From a bacterium (lineage in GTDB: Bacteria; JAMCPX01): a stretch of 11,215 nucleotides of DNA. Both the position numbers and the translations under genes were made by a program. Location of the stretch: positions 1 through 11,215 of the forward strand of contig JAJYJX010000077.1 in assembly GCA_021789095.1 (NCBI GenBank), given 5' to 3'. Numbering within the stretch: the first letter of the stretch is position 1; each line of letters begins with the position of its first letter. Under the pieces are notes generated by a model. That model ran no database searches. It saw nothing but the letters and a program-made list of their open reading frames with translations, and was not told where the DNA came from. Shown here in pieces: positions 482-11,215 of the stretch.

Positions 482-526
482 CAAGATAACAACATCTTGA
501 CTAAATACAAGCACCTACACTATGGT
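482..526 (+). promoter_or_regulatory. Candidate sigma70 promoter with overlapping inverted repeat, upstream of the first MFS gene
   Basis: TTGACT (497-502) and TATGGT (521-526) are separated by 18 bp and lie just upstream of the ribosome site of the gene starting at 553. The inverted repeat CAAGAT-aacaac-ATCTTG (482-499) overlaps the -35 box, where a repressor or activator could act. The -10 match is only 4 of 6, so this is a suggestion. Confidence 0.35.
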
Positions 527-552
527 TGTGCTTAAACAGTAAGGAGGTCGGT

Positions 553-1776
553 ATGGAACAGGAACAAGTCAAATACGGTTCTTACAGGTGGATAGTGCTT
601 GCTCTCTTCATGTTTCAGGTTGTACTTACACAATTTTTGTGGCTCAACTTCGCTCCAATACAGCCCACCATCGAGAATATACTGCATATATCGGATTTCA
701 AATTTGTCCTGCTGCTGTCCGTTTTCAATATCTTCAACCTGGCGCTTTCCCTGCCTGTCGGTGCTGTTCTTGATTCCAGGGGTGTTAAATTTACCGTAGG
801 GCTCGGGTCGATCATTATGGCAATTGCCGTATTACTGCGCCTGAAATCAGATAGTTACTCTTGGATCCTGACCGGACAGATCGGGATTGCAATTGCCCAG
901 CCCTTTATCGTAAACAGCGGCGCAAAGCTTGCCTCAACATGGTTCAATAAAAATGAAGAGGCGCTTGCAAACGGATTTGCATCAATGGCAATGTTCATCG
1001 GCATGATAGCCGCGCTTGTCATTACCCCGATAATCATTCACATCGGCTTATTCCCCATCATGGTAATATACGGCGGCGTTACCGTTCTCGGGTCTCTGCT
1101 GTTCCTTCTCTTTGCCAGGGACAACCCGTCATTGCTTTTAACATTGAAGACCGAGGAACAGGGATACCACCCCGTACAGGCATACAAGGAACTCCTGAAG
1201 ATGAAAGACATGGTTACCATTGCCGGGATCATGTTTATAGGTGTCGGTTTCTTTAACGGTATCACGAACTGGCTTGATAAACTTTTGGGGCCCCAGGGGT
1301 TCTCGGAAGAGCAAAGCGGGGTGATAGTCGGCTTGCTGATAGCCGGAGGCATAGTCGGTGCCATTGTTATGCCGATCCTGTCGGATCTTGTTAAGCGGAG
1401 AAAGCCGTTCCTTATTATGGGAACAGTATCAGCCGGGGTCTTCATGTATCCTCTCATACAAACGAGGAGTTACACCACTGCAATCGTACTGGCAGTAATC
1501 CTCGGATTCATGGTCATATCCTTATTGCCCATTATGTTTCAGATGGCTATAGAGGTTGTCGGTGAAAAATTAACCGGCAGTGCGACAGGCATGATGTGGG
1601 TCTTTGGTGCAACAGGTGCCATTATAACGATTTACGGGATGGAGATTATCGGGAATGCGACATCCGATTTCCGGAACGGCATATGGCTGCTGATGGGTAT
1701 GTTTGTCATTGCCTTTCTGTTGTCTTTAACTTTACGGGAAACCTACGGCGGGACGAACAAGGTGCCCAGCAAATAA
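553..1776 (+). CDS. MFS transporter, resembling the FLVCR/SLC49-type group (copy 1)
   Basis: A 407-aa inner-membrane carrier with about 12 hydrophobic segments. The start at 553 is chosen over an in-frame ATG at 526 because AAGGAGG (541-547) sits 5 bases before it, and because the paralogue at 2793 starts in the same way (MEQ-Q--Y-SYRW). MFS landmarks: the loop 2-3 motif G-x3-D-x2-G at residues 70-77 and an equivalent SDLVKRRKP loop in the second half (about 277-285). The stretch QPFIVNSGAKLASTWF (116-131), followed by ANGFASM, recalls eukaryotic FLVCR/SLC49 carriers, where a similar QPF-N-P-KLAA-WF block is found. FLVCR proteins carry choline or ethanolamine, but the substrate here cannot be read from sequence. 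It is followed 14 bases later by a lipid-kinase gene, so the two are probably co-transcribed. Confidence 0.9.
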   Translation: MEQEQVKYGSYRWIVLALFMFQVVLTQFLWLNFAPIQPTIENILHISDFKFVLLLSVFNIFNLALSLPVGAVLDSRGVKFTVGLGSIIMAIAVLLRLKSDSYSWILTGQIGIAIAQPFIVNSGAKLASTWFNKNEEALANGFASMAMFIGMIAALVITPIIIHIGLFPIMVIYGGVTVLGSLLFLLFARDNPSLLLTLKTEEQGYHPVQAYKELLKMKDMVTIAGIMFIGVGFFNGITNWLDKLLGPQGFSEEQSGVIVGLLIAGGIVGAIVMPILSDLVKRRKPFLIMGTVSAGVFMYPLIQTRSYTTAIVLAVILGFMVISLLPIMFQMAIEVVGEKLTGSATGMMWVFGATGAIITIYGMEIIGNATSDFRNGIWLLMGMFVIAFLLSLTLRETYGGTNKVPSK

Positions 1777-1790
1777 CAGGCATACCGGAT

Positions 1791-2723
1791 ATGAAAGAGC
1801 GTTTCAAGACTTTTGTCATCGTTAACCCGAACTCCGCTAATAAAAGGACCGGGAAAATCTGGCCTGATATTAAAGGATCCCTGACCGAAGCGATAAACGA
1901 TTTTGAGATTGCCTTTACGACCGGCCCTTACACGGCCCCGGACATAACAAGGCAGGCCATAAAATCCGGGGTTGACCGCATTATATCGGTCGGGGGAGAC
2001 GGGACATTGAACGAGATTGTAAACGGCTTTTTCGAGAACGACAAGCCATTGAATCCTGAAGCAGTGCTCGGCGTCGTATCCATGGGCACTGGCTCGGACT
2101 TTATCAAGACGCTGGGCCTGCCGAAACCGTATCAGGACGCAGTACAGGTGATAAAACAGGCAAAGACCAGGACACTGGACGCAGGGAAAATAAGGTTCAT
2201 GTCACATGCAGGCGAGGAAACAACAAGGTATTTTATCAATATAGCAGATGCCGGCATCGGAGGAGAAACCGTCGACCGGGTAAACAGGACCACAAAGGTA
2301 TTCGGTGGATTTGTCTCATTCTTATGGGGCACCATCCTTACACTGATTACGTATAAAAATAAGAACATCACCATTACACTGGACAACAACGCCCCGTACA
2401 ACGCCGAGATCAACATGCTCGCCATTGCGAACTGTCAGTTCTTCGGCGGAGGCATGCACATAGCGCCAAAGGCCGACCCCTGTGACGGGACATTCGATAT
2501 CGTTACCATCGGCAAGGCAGGTTTTATAGATTTTTTGAGGAACTCATCGAAGATCTACAAGGGCACGCATATAAACGATCCCATGATCGGTTACACCCAT
2601 GCAAGGCATGCGGAGCTCACTTCAAAAGACAGGGTGCTGCTGGACGTAGACGGGGAGCAGCCCGGCATGCTGCCTGCAACATTTGACCTGCTGCCCGGGA
2701 GTATAAAGGTAATCGTACCGTAA
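1791..2723 (+). CDS. Diacylglycerol kinase-family lipid kinase (DgkB/YegS/BmrU-like)
   Basis: A 310-aa soluble protein. Domain order is that of the DAGK catalytic family: an N-terminal strand ending in NPNSA (12-16), the nucleotide-binding GGDGT motif (68-72) followed by LNEIVNG, MGTGSDF (98-104), and a C-terminal beta-rich half with DPCDGTFDI and LDVDGE. These enzymes phosphorylate a lipid hydroxyl, usually diacylglycerol, with ATP at the inner membrane face. All key motifs are present and the length is normal (about 290-310 aa). The ATG at 1791 is chosen because it falls just before the conserved domain. The open frame extends further upstream, but that part overlaps the MFS gene in another frame and reads as non-protein-like. 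No clear Shine-Dalgarno precedes it, so translation may be coupled to the MFS gene ending 14 bases upstream. The true lipid substrate is unknown. Confidence 0.93.
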   Translation: MKERFKTFVIVNPNSANKRTGKIWPDIKGSLTEAINDFEIAFTTGPYTAPDITRQAIKSGVDRIISVGGDGTLNEIVNGFFENDKPLNPEAVLGVVSMGTGSDFIKTLGLPKPYQDAVQVIKQAKTRTLDAGKIRFMSHAGEETTRYFINIADAGIGGETVDRVNRTTKVFGGFVSFLWGTILTLITYKNKNITITLDNNAPYNAEINMLAIANCQFFGGGMHIAPKADPCDGTFDIVTIGKAGFIDFLRNSSKIYKGTHINDPMIGYTHARHAELTSKDRVLLDVDGEQPGMLPATFDLLPGSIKVIVP

Positions 2724-2745
2724 AAACTTGCTCCCATAGTTACGC

Positions 2746-2768
2746 TTAACCCCAAAATTGCATTGGGG
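2746..2768 (+). repeat. Copy of dispersed repeat core, able to form a hairpin, between the lipid kinase and second MFS gene
   Basis: These 23 bases match the 23 bases at 8788-8810 at 20 positions. CCCCAA (2750-2755) pairs with TTGGGG (2763-2768) around a 7-base loop. It sits 23 bases after the lipid-kinase stop and just before the ribosome site CAGGAGG (2781-2787) of the next gene, so it could attenuate transcription or affect mRNA stability. There is no T-run, so it is not a standard terminator. Confidence 0.5.
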
Positions 2769-2792
2769 GGGGTAAATAATCAGGAGGCCGGT

Positions 2793-4019
2793 ATGGAACA
2801 GACACAAGGCAGGTACAGTTCGTACAGGTGGGTCGTACTCGGAACGTACATGATCGTCATTGCGCTCACGCAGTTCCTGTGGCTCAATTTTGCGCCGATC
2901 GAAAAGATCGTGCGGCAGCAGCTCGGCATAGGCGAGTTTCAGGTGAGCTTGCTTACATCGATTTTTCCCCTCTTAAGCATTCTCCTCTCGGCACCCGCGG
3001 GCTCTTTACTGGATGCAAAGGGATTCAAGTTTACCGTGGGGCTTGGTGTTATCATCATGGCTGTATCCGCGCTATTGAGATTGAACTACACCAGCTACGC
3101 ATGGCTGTTTGCTGGGCAGTTCGGCATATCCGTGGCACAGCCTTTTATCATGAATAGCGTACCCAAGCTTGCTGCGATATGGTTTGAAAAAAAGGAAGAA
3201 GCCATTGCAAACGGATTAAGCTCCATGGCGATGTTCGTCGGCATGATCACTGCGGTAGTCCTCACTCCAATCCTTGTAAAGGACGCCGGAATCATGGGCA
3301 TTCTGTATATGTACGGAGGCGTCACCGTATCCGGGTGCATCCTGTTTTTACTGCTTGCAAAAGATAACCCCGCGATCGTCTCGACCCTGAAAAAAGAGGA
3401 AAAACAATACAGCTCATGGTCGGCATACAAAGAAATATTTAAAATGAAGGACATGCTTATCCTCATCGGCATTATGTTCATAGGACTCGGGTTCTTCAAC
3501 GGCCTGATGACATGGATAGAAGAACTGCTCACGCCGAACGGCTTTACCTCGGTCCAGACAGGCATCATAGGCGGTGTTATCATAAGCGGCGGCATCATAG
3601 GTGCTATCGTAATCCCCCTGTTGTCGGATCTCCTGAAAAGGAGAAAACCGTTCCTTGTCATGGCAACGGTTGTCGGTGGAATAATGATGTTCCCGTTTCT
3701 AAATACCCGCAACCTGCATCTCGTACTGGCTGTGGGCGCTCTTATCGGGTTTTTCGTAATAGCGCTGCTGCCGATCATATTCCAGATGACCATTGAGATT
3801 GTCGGAGAAAGGCTTACCGGCACGGCGACCGGACTGCTGATGGTCATGGGTTCCACGGGCGCTGTTCTTGTCATATACCTTATGGAAGGCATGAAAACCC
3901 TCACGGGCAGCTTCCACAATTCATTATGGTTGTTCTTTCTGTTCTTTATCGCTGCATTTTTCCTTTCCGTAAGCATAAAGGAGACCCATCCCGAACAGAC
4001 AAAGAAACGGACGGGGTAA
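2793..4019 (+). CDS. MFS transporter, resembling the FLVCR/SLC49-type group (copy 2)
   Basis: A 408-aa, 12-TM inner-membrane carrier, clearly a paralogue of the MFS protein encoded at 553-1776. The two align almost end to end without large gaps and share long blocks such as the TQFLWLNFAPI stretch, KFTVGLG, the AQPFI-NS-KLA block, SMAMF-GMI, KMKDM and SDL-KRRKPFL. The start at 2793 is chosen over an upstream in-frame ATG at 2763 because of CAGGAGG at 2781-2787 and because the first residues then match the paralogue. Canonical loop motifs are intact (GSLLDAKG and PLLSDLLKRRKP), so it should be active. The lipid kinase lies between the two copies, suggesting a tandem duplication of the carrier around it, or functional pairing. 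The gene converges on tadA. Confidence 0.9.
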   Translation: MEQTQGRYSSYRWVVLGTYMIVIALTQFLWLNFAPIEKIVRQQLGIGEFQVSLLTSIFPLLSILLSAPAGSLLDAKGFKFTVGLGVIIMAVSALLRLNYTSYAWLFAGQFGISVAQPFIMNSVPKLAAIWFEKKEEAIANGLSSMAMFVGMITAVVLTPILVKDAGIMGILYMYGGVTVSGCILFLLLAKDNPAIVSTLKKEEKQYSSWSAYKEIFKMKDMLILIGIMFIGLGFFNGLMTWIEELLTPNGFTSVQTGIIGGVIISGGIIGAIVIPLLSDLLKRRKPFLVMATVVGGIMMFPFLNTRNLHLVLAVGALIGFFVIALLPIIFQMTIEIVGERLTGTATGLLMVMGSTGAVLVIYLMEGMKTLTGSFHNSLWLFFLFFIAAFFLSVSIKETHPEQTKKRTG

Positions 4020-4663: not shown

Positions 4664-6514
4664 CTACTGCGACGCAGTCTTTAATCTTGAACCATACTGG
4701 AGAATGCCTTTTATAATTCCGTTTATAATGTCCTGATCGTATCTTTTTTCCGTCAGCAGTTTTTCCTCCCTGGGATTTGTAATGAACGATGTTTCTATAA
4801 GTATGCTCGGCATGTCCGCATGCATCAGCACAAAGAACGGCGCACTCCTTACCCCGAGATTCGTTGTTTTATAATGATCCCGGATCAGGCCATTCACCAT
4901 GTCGCTCTGTATATCCTGGGCAAAAACGGCTGATTCATTCAGTTTGGCTGTCTTCATAAGGTCATCCAGTATGAGCTGCAGGTCGCTGAGCTTGCTGGTT
5001 GATGTCGCGTTCTCTCTTGCTGCAACTATCATGGATGCCCGGTCACGCGTAGGACTAAGATAGTACGTTGTAATACCTTTTGTGCGCCTGCTCCTGCTCG
5101 CGTTTGCGTGTATCGATATGAAAAGGTCCGCGTTACTCATGTTTGCGATCGCAGTCCTTTCTTCAAGGGGAATATATACATCCTTGTCCCTTGTCATAAT
5201 GACCTTAAACCCCATGTCCTTCAATCTGTCTGCAAGCATCGTCCCTATAGCAAGGGTGACGTTCTTCTCCATGGTGCCTTTGCGTCCGATCGCACCCGGG
5301 TCATGTCCTCCATGACCGGGATCTATGACGATTTTTCTTATGGATATCCCCTGTATTTGTTTTACCGGTATGATTTCAGAATTATCCGTATCCTGATTTA
5401 TCTTTTCATAGTCTTCTATGATTTTCGATATGGTGAGCACGTCATCTCTTGCTCCTGTCGTTGTCTGTTCTCCCGCAGTTTCCGTGAAAGCTCCGGCTTC
5501 CGTGATTTCAGTAGCAGTTACATTGCCTGCTGCCGCGATCCCTGTCAGGGGTTCTGCCTTCACATTGTTGGCTGTGTCTGTCTTTTTGCCTTTTACATCT
5601 ATAATGATCCTGAACGGGTCCTCCAGATTAAATATGGAATAATCATCTATATTCCCGACATCCAGAACAACCCTTGTTGTTTTACTGTTGAACTGACCTG
5701 TTCTTACCTCCTCCACAAGACCGTCCTTTACAATTACAGGCGTGGTGTCACAGGTAAGCATTGTACCGTCCAGATCGACATAAACCCGTTTCCCTGTTTC
5801 CCCGTCTTCTTTTTGTTCAAGCAGATGACCTGAGTAAACAATATCGTTTGATACGTTTATCACGACGCGTGTGTAATCTCCTGCCGACCATACTTTTATA
5901 TTTTTTAAAACAGCGGCCGTATTTTTTTTATGACCTTGCGCCTTTGCAGGCAGGCTGCCCCCGAGTTTCTTCACCCATACCCGTGCCATTTGTGCCGAAC
6001 TCCTCTCCGGGTAGTCTTCGATGATCCGTTGGTAAAACTTCAGAGCGGTGCCTGTATCGCCTTTTTTTGTCCTGTATATCTCGGCGATCTTGAACAGCGC
6101 GTCATCTGAAAGCGTGTTCTTTTTGTAATGCTCCTGCAGTGTCTTGAATGCACTTACGGCATCATCGAGGTCTTTTTCCAAAAACGAGCGCGTGTAAAGA
6201 TTATTGTAAAGGTTGCCGATGTTATACAGAGACTTCGGTGCATAACTGCTGTCAGGGTATTTTTTATATACCTGACCAAATTCATCGATAACATTAAACC
6301 ATACGTCCCTGTACTGCTGCTTTTGCTTGCTTGCATTAAGTATATAGTAGTTTTTCACAGCTGTATTGTACAGGCGCTCTGCCTTATTATTTTTTATTGA
6401 GCTGTGAGCTGACATACCCATGCCGAGAGATAGAAGTACGACAGGAATGAGGAACGAAAACCTTCCCGTTTCCCTGCGGTTACAGACGGTGCTCTGTTTT
6501 ACCGGTCTGCCCAC
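4664..6514 (-). CDS. N-acetylmuramoyl-L-alanine amidase with TPR-like, AMIN and Amidase_3 domains (AmiC-like)
   Basis: A 616-aa exported murein hydrolase that cuts the amide bond between MurNAc and the stem peptide. N-terminal signal segment: FSFLIPVVLLSLGMG, ending near SAHS. Then helical TPR-like repeats rich in YxxG and alanine (tool-like units around KYPDSSYAPKSLYNIG and LSDDALFKIAEIY), an AMIN domain (roughly 190-315, with RVVINVS and a repeated RIIIDVKG), a low-complexity linker, and Amidase_3 from about 394. Zinc and catalytic residues are visible: DPGHGG with His401, Glu416 in TMEKN, His469 in SIHAN and Glu574 in LIETSF. AMIN domains target amidases to the envelope. The start is the GTG at 6514, since earlier starts would overlap the upstream slp gene and later ones would lose the signal peptide; the gap to the slp stop is 13 bases. 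The fused TPR region suggests it binds divisome or envelope partners. Confidence 0.9.
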   Translation of the reverse strand: MGRPVKQSTVCNRRETGRFSFLIPVVLLSLGMGMSAHSSIKNNKAERLYNTAVKNYYILNASKQKQQYRDVWFNVIDEFGQVYKKYPDSSYAPKSLYNIGNLYNNLYTRSFLEKDLDDAVSAFKTLQEHYKKNTLSDDALFKIAEIYRTKKGDTGTALKFYQRIIEDYPERSSAQMARVWVKKLGGSLPAKAQGHKKNTAAVLKNIKVWSAGDYTRVVINVSNDIVYSGHLLEQKEDGETGKRVYVDLDGTMLTCDTTPVIVKDGLVEEVRTGQFNSKTTRVVLDVGNIDDYSIFNLEDPFRIIIDVKGKKTDTANNVKAEPLTGIAAAGNVTATEITEAGAFTETAGEQTTTGARDDVLTISKIIEDYEKINQDTDNSEIIPVKQIQGISIRKIVIDPGHGGHDPGAIGRKGTMEKNVTLAIGTMLADRLKDMGFKVIMTRDKDVYIPLEERTAIANMSNADLFISIHANASRSRRTKGITTYYLSPTRDRASMIVAARENATSTSKLSDLQLILDDLMKTAKLNESAVFAQDIQSDMVNGLIRDHYKTTNLGVRSAPFFVLMHADMPSILIETSFITNPREEKLLTEKRYDQDIINGIIKGILQYGSRLKTASQ

Positions 6515-6527
6515 CTGCCAACAAACC

Positions 6528-7070
6528 TCAATACCACGGAGGACCGTAAGGATAGTACCACCACGGCGGGAATGGACCATAATCAAAGCCCAAACCAACG
6601 CTGTATACCGGTACTGGATTGCGCGGTACGGGCCACAGTTTTATGTAGGTCGATTCTATAACAGGAAAGCTGTAAGTCATGCTACCAACCGTCCCCTTTT
6701 TACTTTCATCCACTGTCCCGACAACGGTAACAAGTCTTCCCGGGCCGAATATCTGGGTTTCAAGGTATCCCTTGTAAAGCACGATAAACCTGCCTTCCGA
6801 TCTGTCTCCCTTTTCTGGCTCATAGTCACTATCAAGGGGTAGCTGCATGACTTCAAGTTGGGTATAACCGCTGCTTTCATTCGTTGATCCGACAATCGCA
6901 CCTCCGGCTAAGACTGTTTTGCCTTTATGGGCAGATGGATCACTCATCAGCATGCTGAATGTTATGGATTTGTCCACATTGGAAAGTACGTCCTTGGGGA
7001 TCCCGGGCGCACACCCTGATGCTGCAAACAGTGCAACTGCAAGCAATGTGTAACATATTGTCTTAACCAT
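6528..7070 (-). CDS. slp: Slp-family outer-membrane lipoprotein
   Basis: A 180-aa lipoprotein. The signal peptide is MVKTICYTLLAVALFAASGC, with the lipid-modified Cys at residue 20. The mature part has Slp features: a PxxV/F start, a GKTVLAGGAIV strand, a TQLEVMQLPLD stretch, GRFIVLYKGYLE and GRLVTVVGTVDE, typical of the OB-fold-like Slp/YeaY domain. The C-terminus is very rich in Trp, Tyr and Pro (PPWWYYPYGPPWY), also seen in several Slp relatives. Slp proteins sit on the periplasmic side of the outer membrane and are linked to starvation or stress, but their exact role is poorly known. The start has AAGGAG about 6 bases upstream (7075-7080). It is first in the slp-amidase-tadA operon, consistent with envelope maintenance. 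Confidence 0.88.
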   Translation of the reverse strand: MVKTICYTLLAVALFAASGCAPGIPKDVLSNVDKSITFSMLMSDPSAHKGKTVLAGGAIVGSTNESSGYTQLEVMQLPLDSDYEPEKGDRSEGRFIVLYKGYLETQIFGPGRLVTVVGTVDESKKGTVGSMTYSFPVIESTYIKLWPVPRNPVPVYSVGLGFDYGPFPPWWYYPYGPPWY

Positions 7071-7490: not shown

Positions 7491-7660
7491 GTATTCCTGA
7501 ACCTGTCGTGCAGTTTTTTGATCTTTTTGGGATAAGACATCCTGAAAAGGTTCCCCATATACAACCATCTCAGACGCAGCTCCGGCGGTTTTTCCCGGTA
7601 ATCGTTTATGACTGCTTTGCTGAGATAATAGTCAAATCCAGTTTCTTTATTTTTTTTCAT
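7487..7660 (-). CDS. Small helical protein overlapping the nucleotidyltransferase gene
   Basis: A 57-aa ORF, too short for many gene finders, beginning at the ATG at 7658-7660 inside the last codons of the nucleotidyltransferase gene (14-base overlap). The core reads KPPELRLRWLYMGNLFRMSY, followed by a basic tail KKIKKLHDRFRNT. It resembles small charged, Trp-containing helical proteins (LRLRWL pattern) that I recall next to such nucleotidyltransferases; this is from memory, not a search. Overlap and shared strand argue for translational coupling and a joint role. A partner protein such as an antitoxin-like subunit is possible but unproven. No separate ribosome site is evident apart from the coupling itself. 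Confidence 0.6.
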   Translation of the reverse strand: MKKNKETGFDYYLSKAVINDYREKPPELRLRWLYMGNLFRMSYPKKIKKLHDRFRNT

Positions 7661-8141
7661 TTTTTAATGCCTTAAGATATTTTATGTCCGCTTTATCCTG
7701 CTGTCTGCCTGCTTTTTGTTTCATCTTTATCAGATCGGGAACTGATATTGTAGGAATTATTACATTGCCTGTATTAATATAGTTAACATGCTTTTCAGCG
7801 TTCGTATAATCCACGGGTGCGTCAATAATAATATCAATTTCAGAGATTGCCCATGCCGGATTAAAAAGGCTGAATGCCTTCATGTTCTTCTGCTTTATCC
7901 ATTCTTCTCTTTTAGTTTTTTGAGTAAAATCCATAATGTCCACAGGCACTTTTGGTTTAAATCCCCATCCTTTAAAGAGAGCGAGAAATTTCTTTAGATT
8001 ACTATCTTCGAAATCAACCAGGAGATCTACATCGTACGTCATCCTCGGAATCCCGTGAAGATTAACCGCTATCCCTCCAACTACGATATATTTAATTTCT
8101 TCATCATTCAGTTTCTTAAAGAGAGAAATATAATCAAGCAT
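7647..8141 (-). CDS. Nucleotidyltransferase-fold protein (AbiEii/DUF6036-like)
   Basis: A 164-aa protein of the polymerase-beta nucleotidyltransferase superfamily. The signature is complete: VVGGIAVNLHG with GG at 22-23, the metal-binding pair D37-x-D39 in YDVDLLV, and a third acidic residue D102 in SEIDIIID. The C-terminal part, with SVPDLIKMKQKAGRQQDKAD, is the usual tail of this group (a KxxAGRxxDxxD motif). Such proteins transfer NMP to a protein or RNA, or act as the toxin half of type IV-like pairs; the substrate here is unknown. The start at 8141 is chosen over 8156 because AAAGGA (8145-8150) lies properly before it. It is followed by an overlapping 57-aa gene, an arrangement typical of mobile accessory cassettes. 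Confidence 0.88.
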   Translation of the reverse strand: MLDYISLFKKLNDEEIKYIVVGGIAVNLHGIPRMTYDVDLLVDFEDSNLKKFLALFKGWGFKPKVPVDIMDFTQKTKREEWIKQKNMKAFSLFNPAWAISEIDIIIDAPVDYTNAEKHVNYINTGNVIIPTISVPDLIKMKQKAGRQQDKADIKYLKALKNEKK

Positions 8142-8192
8142 AAGTCCTTTTATCATAGCCGCAAATTAATTACCATAAATCCTCTGTATAAT

Positions 8193-8232
8193 GATAAACA
8201 ATATTCTCCATTTATGAAGAATATTGTTTATC
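8193..8232. promoter_or_regulatory. Upstream activator palindrome for the His/Met-rich gene
   Basis: A perfect 15-bp inverted repeat: GATAAACAATATTCT (8193-8207) and its complement at 8218-8232, around a 10-base centre. The centre is 72.5 bp before the TGG of the sigma54 promoter, about -98 from the expected start site, which is right for an enhancer-binding activator. The stretch 8200-8230 matches 10378-10408 at 28 of 31 positions. As RNA it could also fold, but the fixed spacing argues for protein binding to DNA. Confidence 0.75.
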
Positions 8233-8284
8233 TCTGTTTCACATACATCGGTATAACCTATTGTTTTGGCAATAAATACTATAA

Positions 8285-8299
8285 TGGCACTGTTACTGC
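8285..8299 (+). promoter_or_regulatory. Sigma54 (RpoN) promoter for the His/Met-rich gene
   Basis: TGGCAC-TGTTA-CTGC has the -24 GG and -12 GC with the invariant 10-base gap of the sigma54 consensus TGGCAC-N5-TTGC; one mismatch (C for T). The identical TGGCACTGTTA occurs at 10463. Transcription should start near 8310, leaving a short leader of about 25 bases. Confidence 0.75.
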
Positions 8300-8335
8300 T
8301 TTGTATAAACATTAAATGAAAAAGGAGGAAGTAAA

Positions 8336-8680
8336 ATGAAAAGAGTATTAACAGGCATTGGCGCAATAGTATTTACTATTGCTTTAACAGGTATGGTCAT
8401 GGCTGCAGAACAGACAACAACTCAGCCACAGGATAAAACCCAAGTCCAGAACGGTAATCAAGGATCAGGCACAAACATGGGCAAGCATAATGGTGACAAA
8501 AAAGACACGGGCGGGCAACAGGGTGGTAATTCCGGTTCAAATAAGGGAAAGCACCATGACGGTAATACGGATAATGGCGGACAGCACAATATGGATATGA
8601 ACCATATGAACATGAATCACATGGATATGGGCGGACACAATTCCGGTGGTTCCCACGGCGGCGGGGCCATGGGTATGTAG
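8336..8680 (+). CDS. Secreted His/Met/Gly/Asn-rich protein, probable metal binder
   Basis: A 114-aa protein with a signal peptide (MKRVLTGIGAIVFTIALTGM, cleavage near VMAA/EQ). The mature part is low-complexity: first Gln/Thr/Gly/Asn-rich, then, from about residue 80, a run of His and Met (HNMDMNHMNMNHMDMGGHNS) and a Gly-rich end GGGAMGM. Alternating Met and His side chains in an exported protein typically bind Cu(I), Ag(I) or Cu(II); no folded domain is recognisable, so this is an inference from composition. The ribosome site AAAGGAGG (8321-8328) is ideal. It is under a sigma54 promoter twinned with that of the efflux gene at 10523, supporting a metal-response role in the periplasm. It might act as a chaperone or sponge, as ZraP or CusF do, although it shares no visible homology with either. 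Confidence 0.85.
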   Translation: MKRVLTGIGAIVFTIALTGMVMAAEQTTTQPQDKTQVQNGNQGSGTNMGKHNGDKKDTGGQQGGNSGSNKGKHHDGNTDNGGQHNMDMNHMNMNHMDMGGHNSGGSHGGGAMGM

Positions 8681-8694
8681 AAATTTGTTTTTGA

Positions 8695-8783
8695 GGGAAC
8701 GTATCTCCATCGCACGCCCAGGTTAGCAAATCCTTAAATGGTTGATGGAGGTAAATGGCGGGTTCAATACCCGCCTGTTCCCG
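8695..8783 (+). ncRNA. tRNA-like structured RNA candidate
   Basis: These 89 bases fold into a nested three-helix shape. The outer stem GGGAACG (8695-8701) pairs with TGTTCCC (8776-8782), one wobble. Directly abutting its 3' strand is a T-arm-like hairpin (8757-8775) with GCGGG-TTCAATA-CCCGC, matching tRNA T-loop consensus. TA follows the 5' strand, as at tRNA positions 8-9. Then TCTCCATC (8704-8711) pairs with GATGGAGG (8744-8751), replacing the D and anticodon arms and enclosing a 32-base loop. No normal anticodon arm and no encoded CCA could be found, so it is not an ordinary tRNA. It could be a tRNA relic, a tmRNA-like acceptor/T-arm mimic or a cis-acting leader. Confidence 0.45.
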
Positions 8784-8787
8784 TCTG

Positions 8788-9012
8788 TTAACCCGAAAAA
8801 TGCATTGGGAAATAAGGAAGTTTGAGTAATGAGCGAAAAGCCTGCGTCAAATATAGGTATTCTTCGAATATCAGCAAAAAATATAACAAATGTGACTGCA
8901 TATAAACTTACAGAGGACGATGACATCCTTTACGCCCAAAAGCTTATAAAACTTAGGCGGATCGCAGGATTGAGCGAATGAGCGAACTTCCTTATTGCAT
9001 TTTTCGGGTTAA
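8788..9012. repeat. Inverted-repeat (MITE-like) element
   Basis: The left arm 8788-8822 and right arm 8985-9012 are exact inverted copies except for 7 extra bases (ttgggaa) in the left arm: 17 matching bases, the insertion, then 11 matching bases. The tip TTAACCCGAAAAATGCA is the core of repeats at 2746 and, reversed, at 4652. The 225-bp size, terminal inverted repeats and other copies nearby fit a non-autonomous mobile element or large palindromic intergenic repeat. No target-site duplication was recognised. It lies between the tRNA-like fold and the ribosome site of the HAMP gene. Confidence 0.6.
8829..8981 (+). CDS. 50-aa hypothetical protein inside the inverted-repeat element
   Basis: An ORF filling the space between the repeat arms, starting MSEKPASNIGILRISAKNIT and ending KLIKLRRIAGLSE. 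AAGGAA (8814-8819) is a possible ribosome site 9 bases before the ATG, and it falls inside the left arm. The protein has no signal peptide or recognised domain; the second half is charged and probably helical. GAGCGAATGAGCG-type words occur at both ends of the ORF, so its start and stop may just reflect repeat structure. It could be cargo of the element or a chance frame. Confidence 0.35.
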   Translation: MSEKPASNIGILRISAKNITNVTAYKLTEDDDILYAQKLIKLRRIAGLSE

Positions 9013-9040
9013 TGGGTAATTATTTGAAAGGAGGTTTTTG

Positions 9041-9700
9041 ATGTTAGACGAACGTATAAAAAAGAGATTAACCAAAAAGGCAAGGGTCGGCCGGAGATTG
9101 AATCTTGTCATTGCAATCGTGATTATAGTAACAATGGCAATATTTGAATACCTCAATTTGATTGCTATGCATAAATTTGCAGGCGATTTTTCAGGTTTTG
9201 TAGAGTTTCATCTGATTCATACAGTTATAACAATCGTTATCCTGATTATCGCCACATACTTTATCCTGTCAAAATATGTGGTCAAACCGATTTATCAATT
9301 ATTGGTTGCAATTGAGGAGGTAAAGTCGGGTAAACTTGTTACTGCTCTTGAAATCAGAACCAATGATGAATTTGAATTGCTTGCAGAGGAATTCAATGAA
9401 ATGGGATTTCGGTTGCGCAACCAAATGCAGCACGAGATACGGGCCGGTAAATATAGCGCAGCAATTGCAGTCGCCAAAGGAATTGCCAATAGCCTATCTG
9501 AACCATGTTCCACATTACATATTAATATAAAACAGCTTAAAAATATTGCCAAAGGGAATCTACAGATTGAAACCCTTCCCGATCTAATGTCCAAAGGCAT
9601 AATTGAAATCGAACAAAAATTAAAAGAAATAACCAGCATTGATGTCCCGGAGGAATTAAAAGAAGAATTGAAAGAATGGTCGGATATTGATCGCGCATAA
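9041..9700 (+). CDS. HAMP-domain membrane protein with degenerate histidine-kinase DHp helix and no ATPase domain
   Basis: A 219-aa inner-membrane protein: basic N-terminus, TM1 about 20-40, a short periplasmic loop, TM2 about 58-77, HAMP about 78-130 (P83 after the membrane, and NDEFELLAEEFNEM), then a helix reading GKYSAAIAVAKGIANSLSEP. This aligns with the sensor-kinase box GxxAAGxAHExxNPL, but the phosphate-accepting His is Asn150. A short coiled tail follows, then the stop; there is no HATPase_c domain. It cannot autophosphorylate by the usual route, so it may regulate a partner kinase by forming mixed dimers, or be a remnant. The start at 9041 follows AAAGGAGG (9027-9034) with 6 bases spacing. 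Its place between the metal-response genes suggests a role in their signalling. Confidence 0.8.
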   Translation: MLDERIKKRLTKKARVGRRLNLVIAIVIIVTMAIFEYLNLIAMHKFAGDFSGFVEFHLIHTVITIVILIIATYFILSKYVVKPIYQLLVAIEEVKSGKLVTALEIRTNDEFELLAEEFNEMGFRLRNQMQHEIRAGKYSAAIAVAKGIANSLSEPCSTLHINIKQLKNIAKGNLQIETLPDLMSKGIIEIEQKLKEITSIDVPEELKEELKEWSDIDRA

Positions 9701-9727
9701 GCAACTAAAAATTTAATAAACTCAATT

Positions 9728-9756
9728 TTGGAGGTTAGAGATTTATTTGATAATAT
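9728..9756 (+). promoter_or_regulatory. Weak sigma70-like promoter before the secreted protein gene
   Basis: TTGGAG (9728-9733) and TAATAT (9751-9756) with a 17-bp spacer, each 4 of 6 to consensus. The palindrome ATAGGCCTAT lies just downstream, and CCAC-aacattc-GTGG further on may be an operator or mRNA hairpin. The gap 9701-9878 holds nothing else recognised. Confidence 0.25.
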
Positions 9757-9878
9757 AAGTAGCTATAGGCCTATTGCACAACCACAATAAACATCCACAA
9801 CATTCGTGGACTTGTGACAAAAAGTGTTTAGCTTGTTCAGTAGAAAAGCTTTGCGGGAGTAAGGCATAAGGAGGAATT

Positions 9879-10289
9879 ATGAAGAAAACAATTCTATTGA
9901 TTTTCTTATTTGTTTTGGCGGTTGTCAATAATGGGTATGCTCAAAAGATAGATACACTGTTCCAATATAGTGAACCGATAGCTGCGAACAGCAAAAAGTC
10001 TTTCACGGTCAACATTGAAGGAAAAGGATACACAAAGGTCAAGATCGTATGTAATGTGGATCAACAGGATGTCGTGATGTATTACAAGACCGATAGTATG
10101 AACTCATATGATTCAACAACGACAACTGGGTTATCGCCTTACTATAACTATCTTTATCATAAGAGACTGTTTTTATTGTCCACCTCTCTGCCGGTTAAAT
10201 CTGCGGGCAGTGTCCATTTCTTTATTGAAAATAGAGGCGATAAAGATACATCGGTCCGATTAACGGTTTATGGATTAACACAAGAGTAG
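9879..10289 (+). CDS. Secreted protein of unknown function
   Basis: A 136-aa protein with a clear signal peptide, MKKTILLIFLFVLAVVNNGY, cleaved near YAQ. The mature part is about 115 residues, rich in Ser, Thr, Tyr and alternating hydrophobic residues (KSFTVNIEGKGYTKVKIVC, SVHFFIENRGDKDTSVRLTV), suggesting an all-beta sandwich fold. One Cys is present in the mature chain (in KIVCNVD), with no His/Met cluster and no recognised motif. The start is fixed by AAGGAGG (9868-9874) 4 bases before the ATG. It sits between the HAMP protein and the sigma54-controlled efflux gene, but whether it belongs to the same response is not shown. I do not recognise the family. Confidence 0.75.
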   Translation: MKKTILLIFLFVLAVVNNGYAQKIDTLFQYSEPIAANSKKSFTVNIEGKGYTKVKIVCNVDQQDVVMYYKTDSMNSYDSTTTTGLSPYYNYLYHKRLFLLSTSLPVKSAGSVHFFIENRGDKDTSVRLTVYGLTQE

Positions 10290-10377
10290 AAGTCCCCGAT
10301 AGAAAGTCATTTTCTAAAAATACTTTAATAACCGGAAGCTGAGAGGGTTCTCCTTAAAAATAACAAAGTGACTACAG

Positions 10378-10408
10378 AATATTCTCTGTTTATGGAGAAT
10401 ATTGTTTA
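10378..10408. promoter_or_regulatory. Upstream activator palindrome for the efflux gene
   Basis: AATATTCTC (10378-10386) and GAGAATATT (10395-10403) form a 9-bp inverted repeat whose centre is 72.5 bp before the sigma54 TGG, exactly as at 8193-8232. A further block, ATAACCT (10431-10437), matches 8253-8259 at the same offset and overlaps a dyad CCTGT-N7-ACAGG (10435-10451). The stretch 10290-10377 shows only a weak AT-rich stem (TAGAAA/TTTCTA) after the previous gene. Confidence 0.75.
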
Positions 10409-10462
10409 ATCAATTTCTTCATCCACTGCAATAACCTGTTAATTTTACAGGAAATGTTAAAG

Positions 10463-10477
10463 TGGCACTGTTATTGC
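10463..10477 (+). promoter_or_regulatory. Sigma54 (RpoN) promoter for the efflux gene
   Basis: TGGCAC-TGTTA-TTGC is a full match to the sigma54 consensus TGGCAC-N5-TTGC, with correct GG-to-GC spacing. It lies 46 bases before the ATG of the outer-membrane efflux gene; transcription should begin near 10489. Confidence 0.85.
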
Positions 10478-10522
10478 TTTTCTAATGTAATTTGATAAAA
10501 ATAAGGTGAGAATATAAAAGTT

Positions 10523-11215
10523 ATGAAAAAATTGTTATGGATTGTATACGCTGTTTTGATCCTTGTGCCGTCTGTTGCCATGGCTCAGGAGGGGACTACT
10601 CAGGACAGGTTTACGCTGAACCAATACGTTGACGAAGTACTGGAAGCCAACCCATCTATCAAAAGCATGCAGGCAAAGGTTGCCGATTTTGAAGCACGGT
10701 ATCATTATACCGGTGTTATCCCCGACCCTTCCCTGATGTTTAAGATTAACAATATGGATACAAGTTATTCTGTTGGCGCGGATCCCATGAGCTTTTTTGC
10801 CATCGAACTCGATCAAACGATACCGTTCCCGGAAAAGCTGCACCTCGCTTCCGAGATATCATACAAAGAGCTTCAGATAAACAGGCAATTACTCAAACTG
10901 ACGGAACTTGAAATCCAGTCGCAGGCAGTCTCTGCGTTCAGCGATTATTATTACAACACAGAATCTCTCTTACTGCTCGAGCAATATGTAAAGGTTATCG
11001 ACACGGTTATCGGTACCGCACGCCAGAGGTACGAAACAGGTATTGCATCCCAGCAGGATTTACTCCGGGCAATCCTTGAACGTTCAAGGCTCGAGGAGCG
11101 GATAGAGCTTGCAGGCTTTGAGCTGAAGCGATCCATCGCACGTATGAACGGTCTGCTCGGCAAAGCACCTGATATGCAGATCCCTGCACCGGCAGGACTG
11201 AAACCTGCTGTCATA
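10523..11215 (+). CDS. Outer-membrane efflux protein (CusC/CzcC/TolC family), 3' end outside window
   Basis: An open frame of 231 codons running off the end. Signal peptide MKKLLWIVYAVLILVPSVAM, cleaved near AMA/QE. The mature N-terminus has the OEP pattern: FTLNQYVDEVLEANPSIK, then a long helix, the strand region VIPDPSLMFKINN, ELDQTIPFPEKL (typical of CzcC/CusC-like members: 'QxxPFPGKL'), and helical hairpin residues RYETGIASQQDLLRA, the classic R-x-x-G-x-x-x-x-x-D-L motif. Such proteins form the outer-membrane channel of RND metal pumps, so membrane-fusion and pump genes are expected just downstream. The start has only a weak ribosome site (GGTGAG, about 10505-10510). A sigma54 promoter precedes it. 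Confidence 0.92.
   Translation, partial: MKKLLWIVYAVLILVPSVAMAQEGTTQDRFTLNQYVDEVLEANPSIKSMQAKVADFEARYHYTGVIPDPSLMFKINNMDTSYSVGADPMSFFAIELDQTIPFPEKLHLASEISYKELQINRQLLKLTELEIQSQAVSAFSDYYYNTESLLLLEQYVKVIDTVIGTARQRYETGIASQQDLLRAILERSRLEERIELAGFELKRSIARMNGLLGKAPDMQIPAPAGLKPAVI

Follow-up and report, generated by a model that had tools for sequence, protein, structure and literature searches.

The window, a stretch of 11,215 nucleotides, corresponds to an entire contig of a draft genome (2.15 Mb, 92% complete). Its right-hand part holds two putative control regions, a secreted His/Met-rich protein and the beginning of an efflux operon; as the contig ends here, only the first 231 codons of the operon's leading gene are present. 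The features are as follows:

8193–8232, no strand: palindrome 1, proposed activator-binding site, centre 8212.5 (about -98), kept in relatives
8254–8266, no strand: middle box 1, IHF-type, reverse orientation (TAACCTATTGTTT, 8/9)
8285–8302, plus strand: putative sigma54 -24/-12 element 1 (TGGCACTGTTACTGCTTT, 9/11), predicted start 8311
8336–8680, plus strand: secreted His/Met-rich protein of 114 aa, likely a periplasmic metal binder, with an ortholog in the related genome G006
9041–9700, plus strand: membrane HAMP protein; its kinase dimerisation region is degenerate (Asn in place of His), and it has no ATPase domain
9879–10289, plus strand: secreted 136-aa protein of unknown function, retained beside the regulon in G006 and G007
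10373–10408, no strand: palindrome 2, proposed activator-binding site
10432–10444, no strand: middle box 2, IHF-type (TAACCTGTTAATT, 8/9)
10463–10480, plus strand: putative sigma54 -24/-12 element 2 (TGGCACTGTTATTGCTTT, 10/11), predicted start 10489
10523–11215, plus strand: CusC-type outer membrane efflux gene, incomplete because it runs into the contig end; in G005 and G007, cusB and cusA come next

Neither the His/Met-rich protein (8336–8680) nor the secreted 136-aa protein (9879–10289) has a protein family match, and Rfam and tRNA scans were empty. The structure prediction of the HAMP protein (pLDDT 53) was left unused. Between the His/Met-rich and HAMP genes, a 225-bp segment (8788–9012) bounded by perfect 17-nt inverted repeats (TTAACCCGAAAAATGCA) resembles a small inserted element. 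Further to the left, a nucleotidyltransferase of the DUF6036/AbiEii type (7647–8156, minus strand) is divergent from the first sigma54 promoter, and positions 526–4019 hold a diacylglycerol-kinase-like ORF flanked by two MFS transporters that resemble each other.

Shifted by 2178 throughout, the two control regions align without gaps over palindrome, middle box and sigma54 element; all three blocks named in a preliminary description of this DNA are present in both promoters, including good -24/-12 sites. The reported palindrome identity was reproduced: the copies at 8200–8230 and 10378–10408 agree in 28 of 31 positions, and 200 shuffles of the window give an expectation of zero such matches. 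The dyad of the first copy reaches from 8193 to 8232, with 19-nt arms that are 95% complementary. ATAACCT boxes occur exactly at 8253 and 10431, and TGGCACTGTTAYTGCTTT exactly at 8285 and 10463, a TGGCAC-N5-TTGC-type -24/-12 element with GG and GC 12 nt apart. With the -12 at 8299 and the start predicted at 8311, the upstream dyad is centred at about -98, in agreement with the position proposed earlier and within the range of about -80 to -150 for a candidate activator site. Between the two promoters, the blocks are identical in 23/26, 11/14 and 17/18 positions, the spacers in 13/27 and 10/18, and the stretch downstream, which has not been copied, in 19/47. The intervening sequence had been called mostly different, which pointed to selection on the blocks and not to a recent copy; the selection holds up, but roughly half of each spacer is identical. 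A common cassette origin is therefore probable: the promoters probably descend from one old cassette, with selection holding the blocks.

RpoN is present in the genome, as are good -24/-12 sites at both places, in line with the assignment as sigma54 promoters; the genome search thereby also disposes of an absence of RpoN, one of the objections foreseen at the outset. Another was that the palindrome might be common away from sigma54 sites, but with up to three mismatches it occurs at only two places in the genome, both in the window. A scan of a viral collection for the palindrome was empty.

The search set holds nine genomes of the phylum, five of which contain the module, with ten sites altogether: two in G000, three in G005, three in G006 (two of them somewhat degenerate), one in G007 and a single weak site in G001. 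Control patterns returned no module. Clear cusC orthologs are confined to G000, G005, G006 and G007, with a module upstream of all four (a further, distant cusC match in G005, at 21% identity, was left out of the count), and the genomes without cusC have no strong module sites. The cusC site of G006 reads ACTATTCTTCATTCCTGAAGAATAAT, then ATAACCT, then TGGCACGATAATTGCC (sigma54 element 11/11); it was missed by the pattern search and located after the cusC ortholog had been found by its protein, and, reached via the gene first, it therefore confirms the module independently. The conservation counts as such are not independent, because the promoters may be related by descent. At seven of eleven sites (the ten of the phylum and one of Candidatus Desulfobia pelagia, described below) the palindrome stands 59 nt before TGG, the background frequency of sigma54 sites being 3e-4 per position; the exceptions are 57–58 nt at two G006 sites, 35 at copA of G005 and 72 in Desulfobia. 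Behind the modules lie cusC-cusB-cusA, a copper P-type ATPase with YHS domain, the His/Met-rich protein, a secreted protein bearing CxxCH with a beta-barrel protein after it, and a PCYCGC-motif protein; in G006, one module stands in front of a short ORF and the HAMP protein. Among the copper-family targets, CusA/CzcA scores above the family cut-off in G007 and the copper P-type ATPase in G005. The proposed operator, AATATTCT-YYA-N4-TRR-AGAATATT, usually 59 nt before TGGCA, is precise and testable.

The ordinary layout of sigma54 promoters comprises an activator site, a bend site and the -24/-12 element, in that order. The middle box agrees with the reversed IHF consensus, always at +28, in 8/9 positions at five of the six strong sites with 59-nt spacing and in 7/9 at the remaining one; because the promoters are related, these counts are not independent. 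Among shuffled spacers, 8% contain a match of 8/9 somewhere along their length. The ATAACCT block would fit an IHF-type site.

When 84,980 species genomes were scanned for both half-sites together with a sigma54 site, four loci emerged: two in this phylum, a chance hairpin, and one in Candidatus Desulfobia pelagia, whose cusCBA genes are preceded by a perfect palindrome. The alphaproteobacterial match (L032) was rejected as a lone hairpin with no metal genes adjoining; matches at two mismatches in 394 other Desulfobacterota genomes were set aside as background, with similar counts in the controls and no metal genes.

Because the palindrome has only two copies in the genome and recurs at a fixed distance before metal-export genes in other species, it is best read as a dedicated activator site, and this comparison favours the original proposal of an operator for an enhancer-binding activator. 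A transcription terminator or repeat element, copied along with part of the promoter, is a very improbable explanation: the palindrome can fold as RNA (-17.3 kcal/mol, z -6.1), but terminator calling finds nothing there, it lies upstream of the predicted start, the sequence beyond the promoter was not duplicated, two copies are few for a repeat, and a terminator would be needless at copy 1, which sits between divergent gene starts (8156 and 8336). Non-sigma54 regulators, too, make use of long AT-rich palindromes, and no activator gene is linked to this one, so that a metal-sensing repressor or a MerR/OmpR-type protein could use it while the overlap with sigma54 sites is coincidental. The distance of 57–59 nt to the -24/-12 element in 9/11 sites makes such a coincidence improbable, and a centre near -98 suits an activator but is a poor place for a repressor of a promoter at +1.

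Which activator would bind the palindrome is less clear. An NtrC-type regulator and kinase had been expected beside the efflux operon, but none adjoins the operons in the stretches read around the sites; the activator would then be encoded elsewhere, and the genome holds nine full NtrC-type activators. When the activators of all nine phylum genomes were clustered, six groups proved common to G000, G005, G006 and G007 (one G006 member is cut by a contig end). No group tracks the modules exactly across the nine genomes, and co-occurrence alone therefore could not name the regulator; nor does any activator gene of the phylum have a module-like site above background beside it. The best candidate, put forward tentatively and at slightly under an even chance, is the unlinked two-component pair G000:C75 (kinase 157–1194, activator 1182–2483). 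Compared with the 23 full activators of Desulfobia, the C75 group gives reciprocal best hits (from G001, G002 and G003), and the ortholog has the same kinase-activator layout and a similar recognition helix (IPRHKLIYR versus VPRHVLIYR). Since PilR and two other groups likewise have reciprocal hits in Desulfobia, these alone do not decide for C75. In its first membrane segments, the C75 kinase has retained His, Met and Cys (HYMYGMSH...HRRLCY), which would be compatible with metal sensing. At a distance of about 3 kb, the Desulfobia ortholog of the pair is accompanied by GAAGAATATTCTTTACTCATTTGGAGAATATTC, the same motif with a 12-nt centre; it has the flanks of the Desulfobia cusC site and stands 89 nt ahead of TGGCACACCCTTTGCT (10/11), which is followed by a small operon. 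An arbitrary 218 kb of Desulfobia sequence contains no perfect motif pair, whichever gap between 4 and 18 is allowed. The proximity is suggestive only, because the locus was chosen via that activator and a small part of the genome was read.

Some observations adjoin this candidate. In Desulfobia, L168:9502–10666 carries the motif and a sigma54 promoter before a small paired-cysteine secreted protein and an FtsX-like membrane protein, and may belong to the regulon as well. The first loop of the C75-type kinase (L059-type; L102 and L092 versus L045, L106, L112 and L114) reads MSH in G000, G002, G005 and G007, LSH in G006, and MSG in G001 and G003, both of which lack cusC. At 4664–7070, the minus strand of the window carries genes for an Slp lipoprotein and an AMIN-amidase, and these two genes lie divergently beside the C75-type pair in G002 and G005, a weak hint of synteny.

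The same regulon may instead obey another NtrC-type activator, for example the G000:C189 pair or a group common to the four genomes with strong modules, a serious contender that we nevertheless place below an even chance. The C189 group occurs in 9/9 genomes, and its kinase is a near match to the HAMP protein of the regulon (141 columns, E 1.6e-5), to which the C75 kinase does not align. The likeness, over residues 29–172 of the HAMP protein, is confined, however, to the generic membrane-HAMP-dimerisation part, where other kinases match about equally, and the C189 activator has no reciprocal ortholog among the 23 full Desulfobia activators. That the HAMP protein could modulate a kinase is speculation.

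CusR is an OmpR-type regulator acting on sigma70 promoters, in contrast to the sigma54-type control considered here. CusRS-cusCFBA of E. coli has a CusCBA-type pump under two-component control (PMC10100754), and the pump here is of the same type, with two-component control proposed. In Myxococcus xanthus, the CorSR/curA operon places copper genes under a sigma54 two-component system, and the likeness extends to a His-rich secreted protein, a CopA with YHS domain and an activator of the receiver-AAA-Fis type with a HAMP kinase (PMC3707914). In contrast to the present case, where the candidate pair is unlinked and the operons at the sites read contain neither kinase nor activator, corSR lies inside the operon it controls; its targets include a multicopper oxidase instead of CusCBA, and the main text names no palindrome or binding site (PMC3707914), whereas the operator described here is defined by comparison. 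ZraSR-zraP of enterobacteria shares sigma54 control, a two-component activator (here proposed) and a secreted metal-binder as target, but responds to zinc and envelope stress, with zraP divergent from zraSR (PMC4987338). A metal-sensing system of the ZraSR-zraP kind had been thought plausible; sigma54 control and metal-type gene content agree with this, whereas the window has no adjoining pair and the His/Met-rich product matches no protein family, ZraP included. The regulon is assigned to neither CorSR nor ZraSR, because the gene linkage of CorSR is lacking and it has an operator and a target set of its own. Copper control by sigma54 is thus already known from CorSR (PMC3707914), and the claim of an undescribed metal-response regulon stands for the operator and the regulon, with a copper/silver-type metal judged from gene content, but not for the kind of system. 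In the literature searched (titles, abstracts and passages, with few subscription papers), neither sigma54 control of CusCBA-type pumps nor the literal operator motif strings were found, and the text of D. vulgaris sigma54 papers, figures aside, mentions no metal-efflux operator.

Taken together, both regions can with good confidence be regarded as sigma54 promoters of one export regulon, of copper/silver type because of its gene content, with an NtrC-type activator on the palindrome. The module is very probably a real copper-response switch, to judge from its conservation, and could operate in the following manner: In response to copper or silver, the activator would bind the palindrome, some 98 bp ahead of the start. 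Bending of the DNA at the middle box by an IHF/HU-type protein may bring the activator to the RNA polymerase-sigma54 complex at -24/-12, and ATP hydrolysis by the activator would then open the promoter. The regulon would supply a CusCBA-type efflux pump and a secreted, His/Met-rich protein that binds metal, in relatives additionally a copper P-type ATPase and other secreted proteins. In its most extended form, the proposal is a copper/silver-export regulon with an undescribed operator and an unlinked sigma54 activator of the C75 two-component type, common to Desulfobacterota and a phylum that has barely been sampled; the regulon would include a HAMP protein that derives from a kinase, lacks the catalytic parts and may exert feedback on signalling; as a whole, this combination is rather unlikely. 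The comparison nonetheless puts forward an operator for sigma54-driven metal export in a phylum of which only nine genomes were searched, and names one candidate for its regulator.
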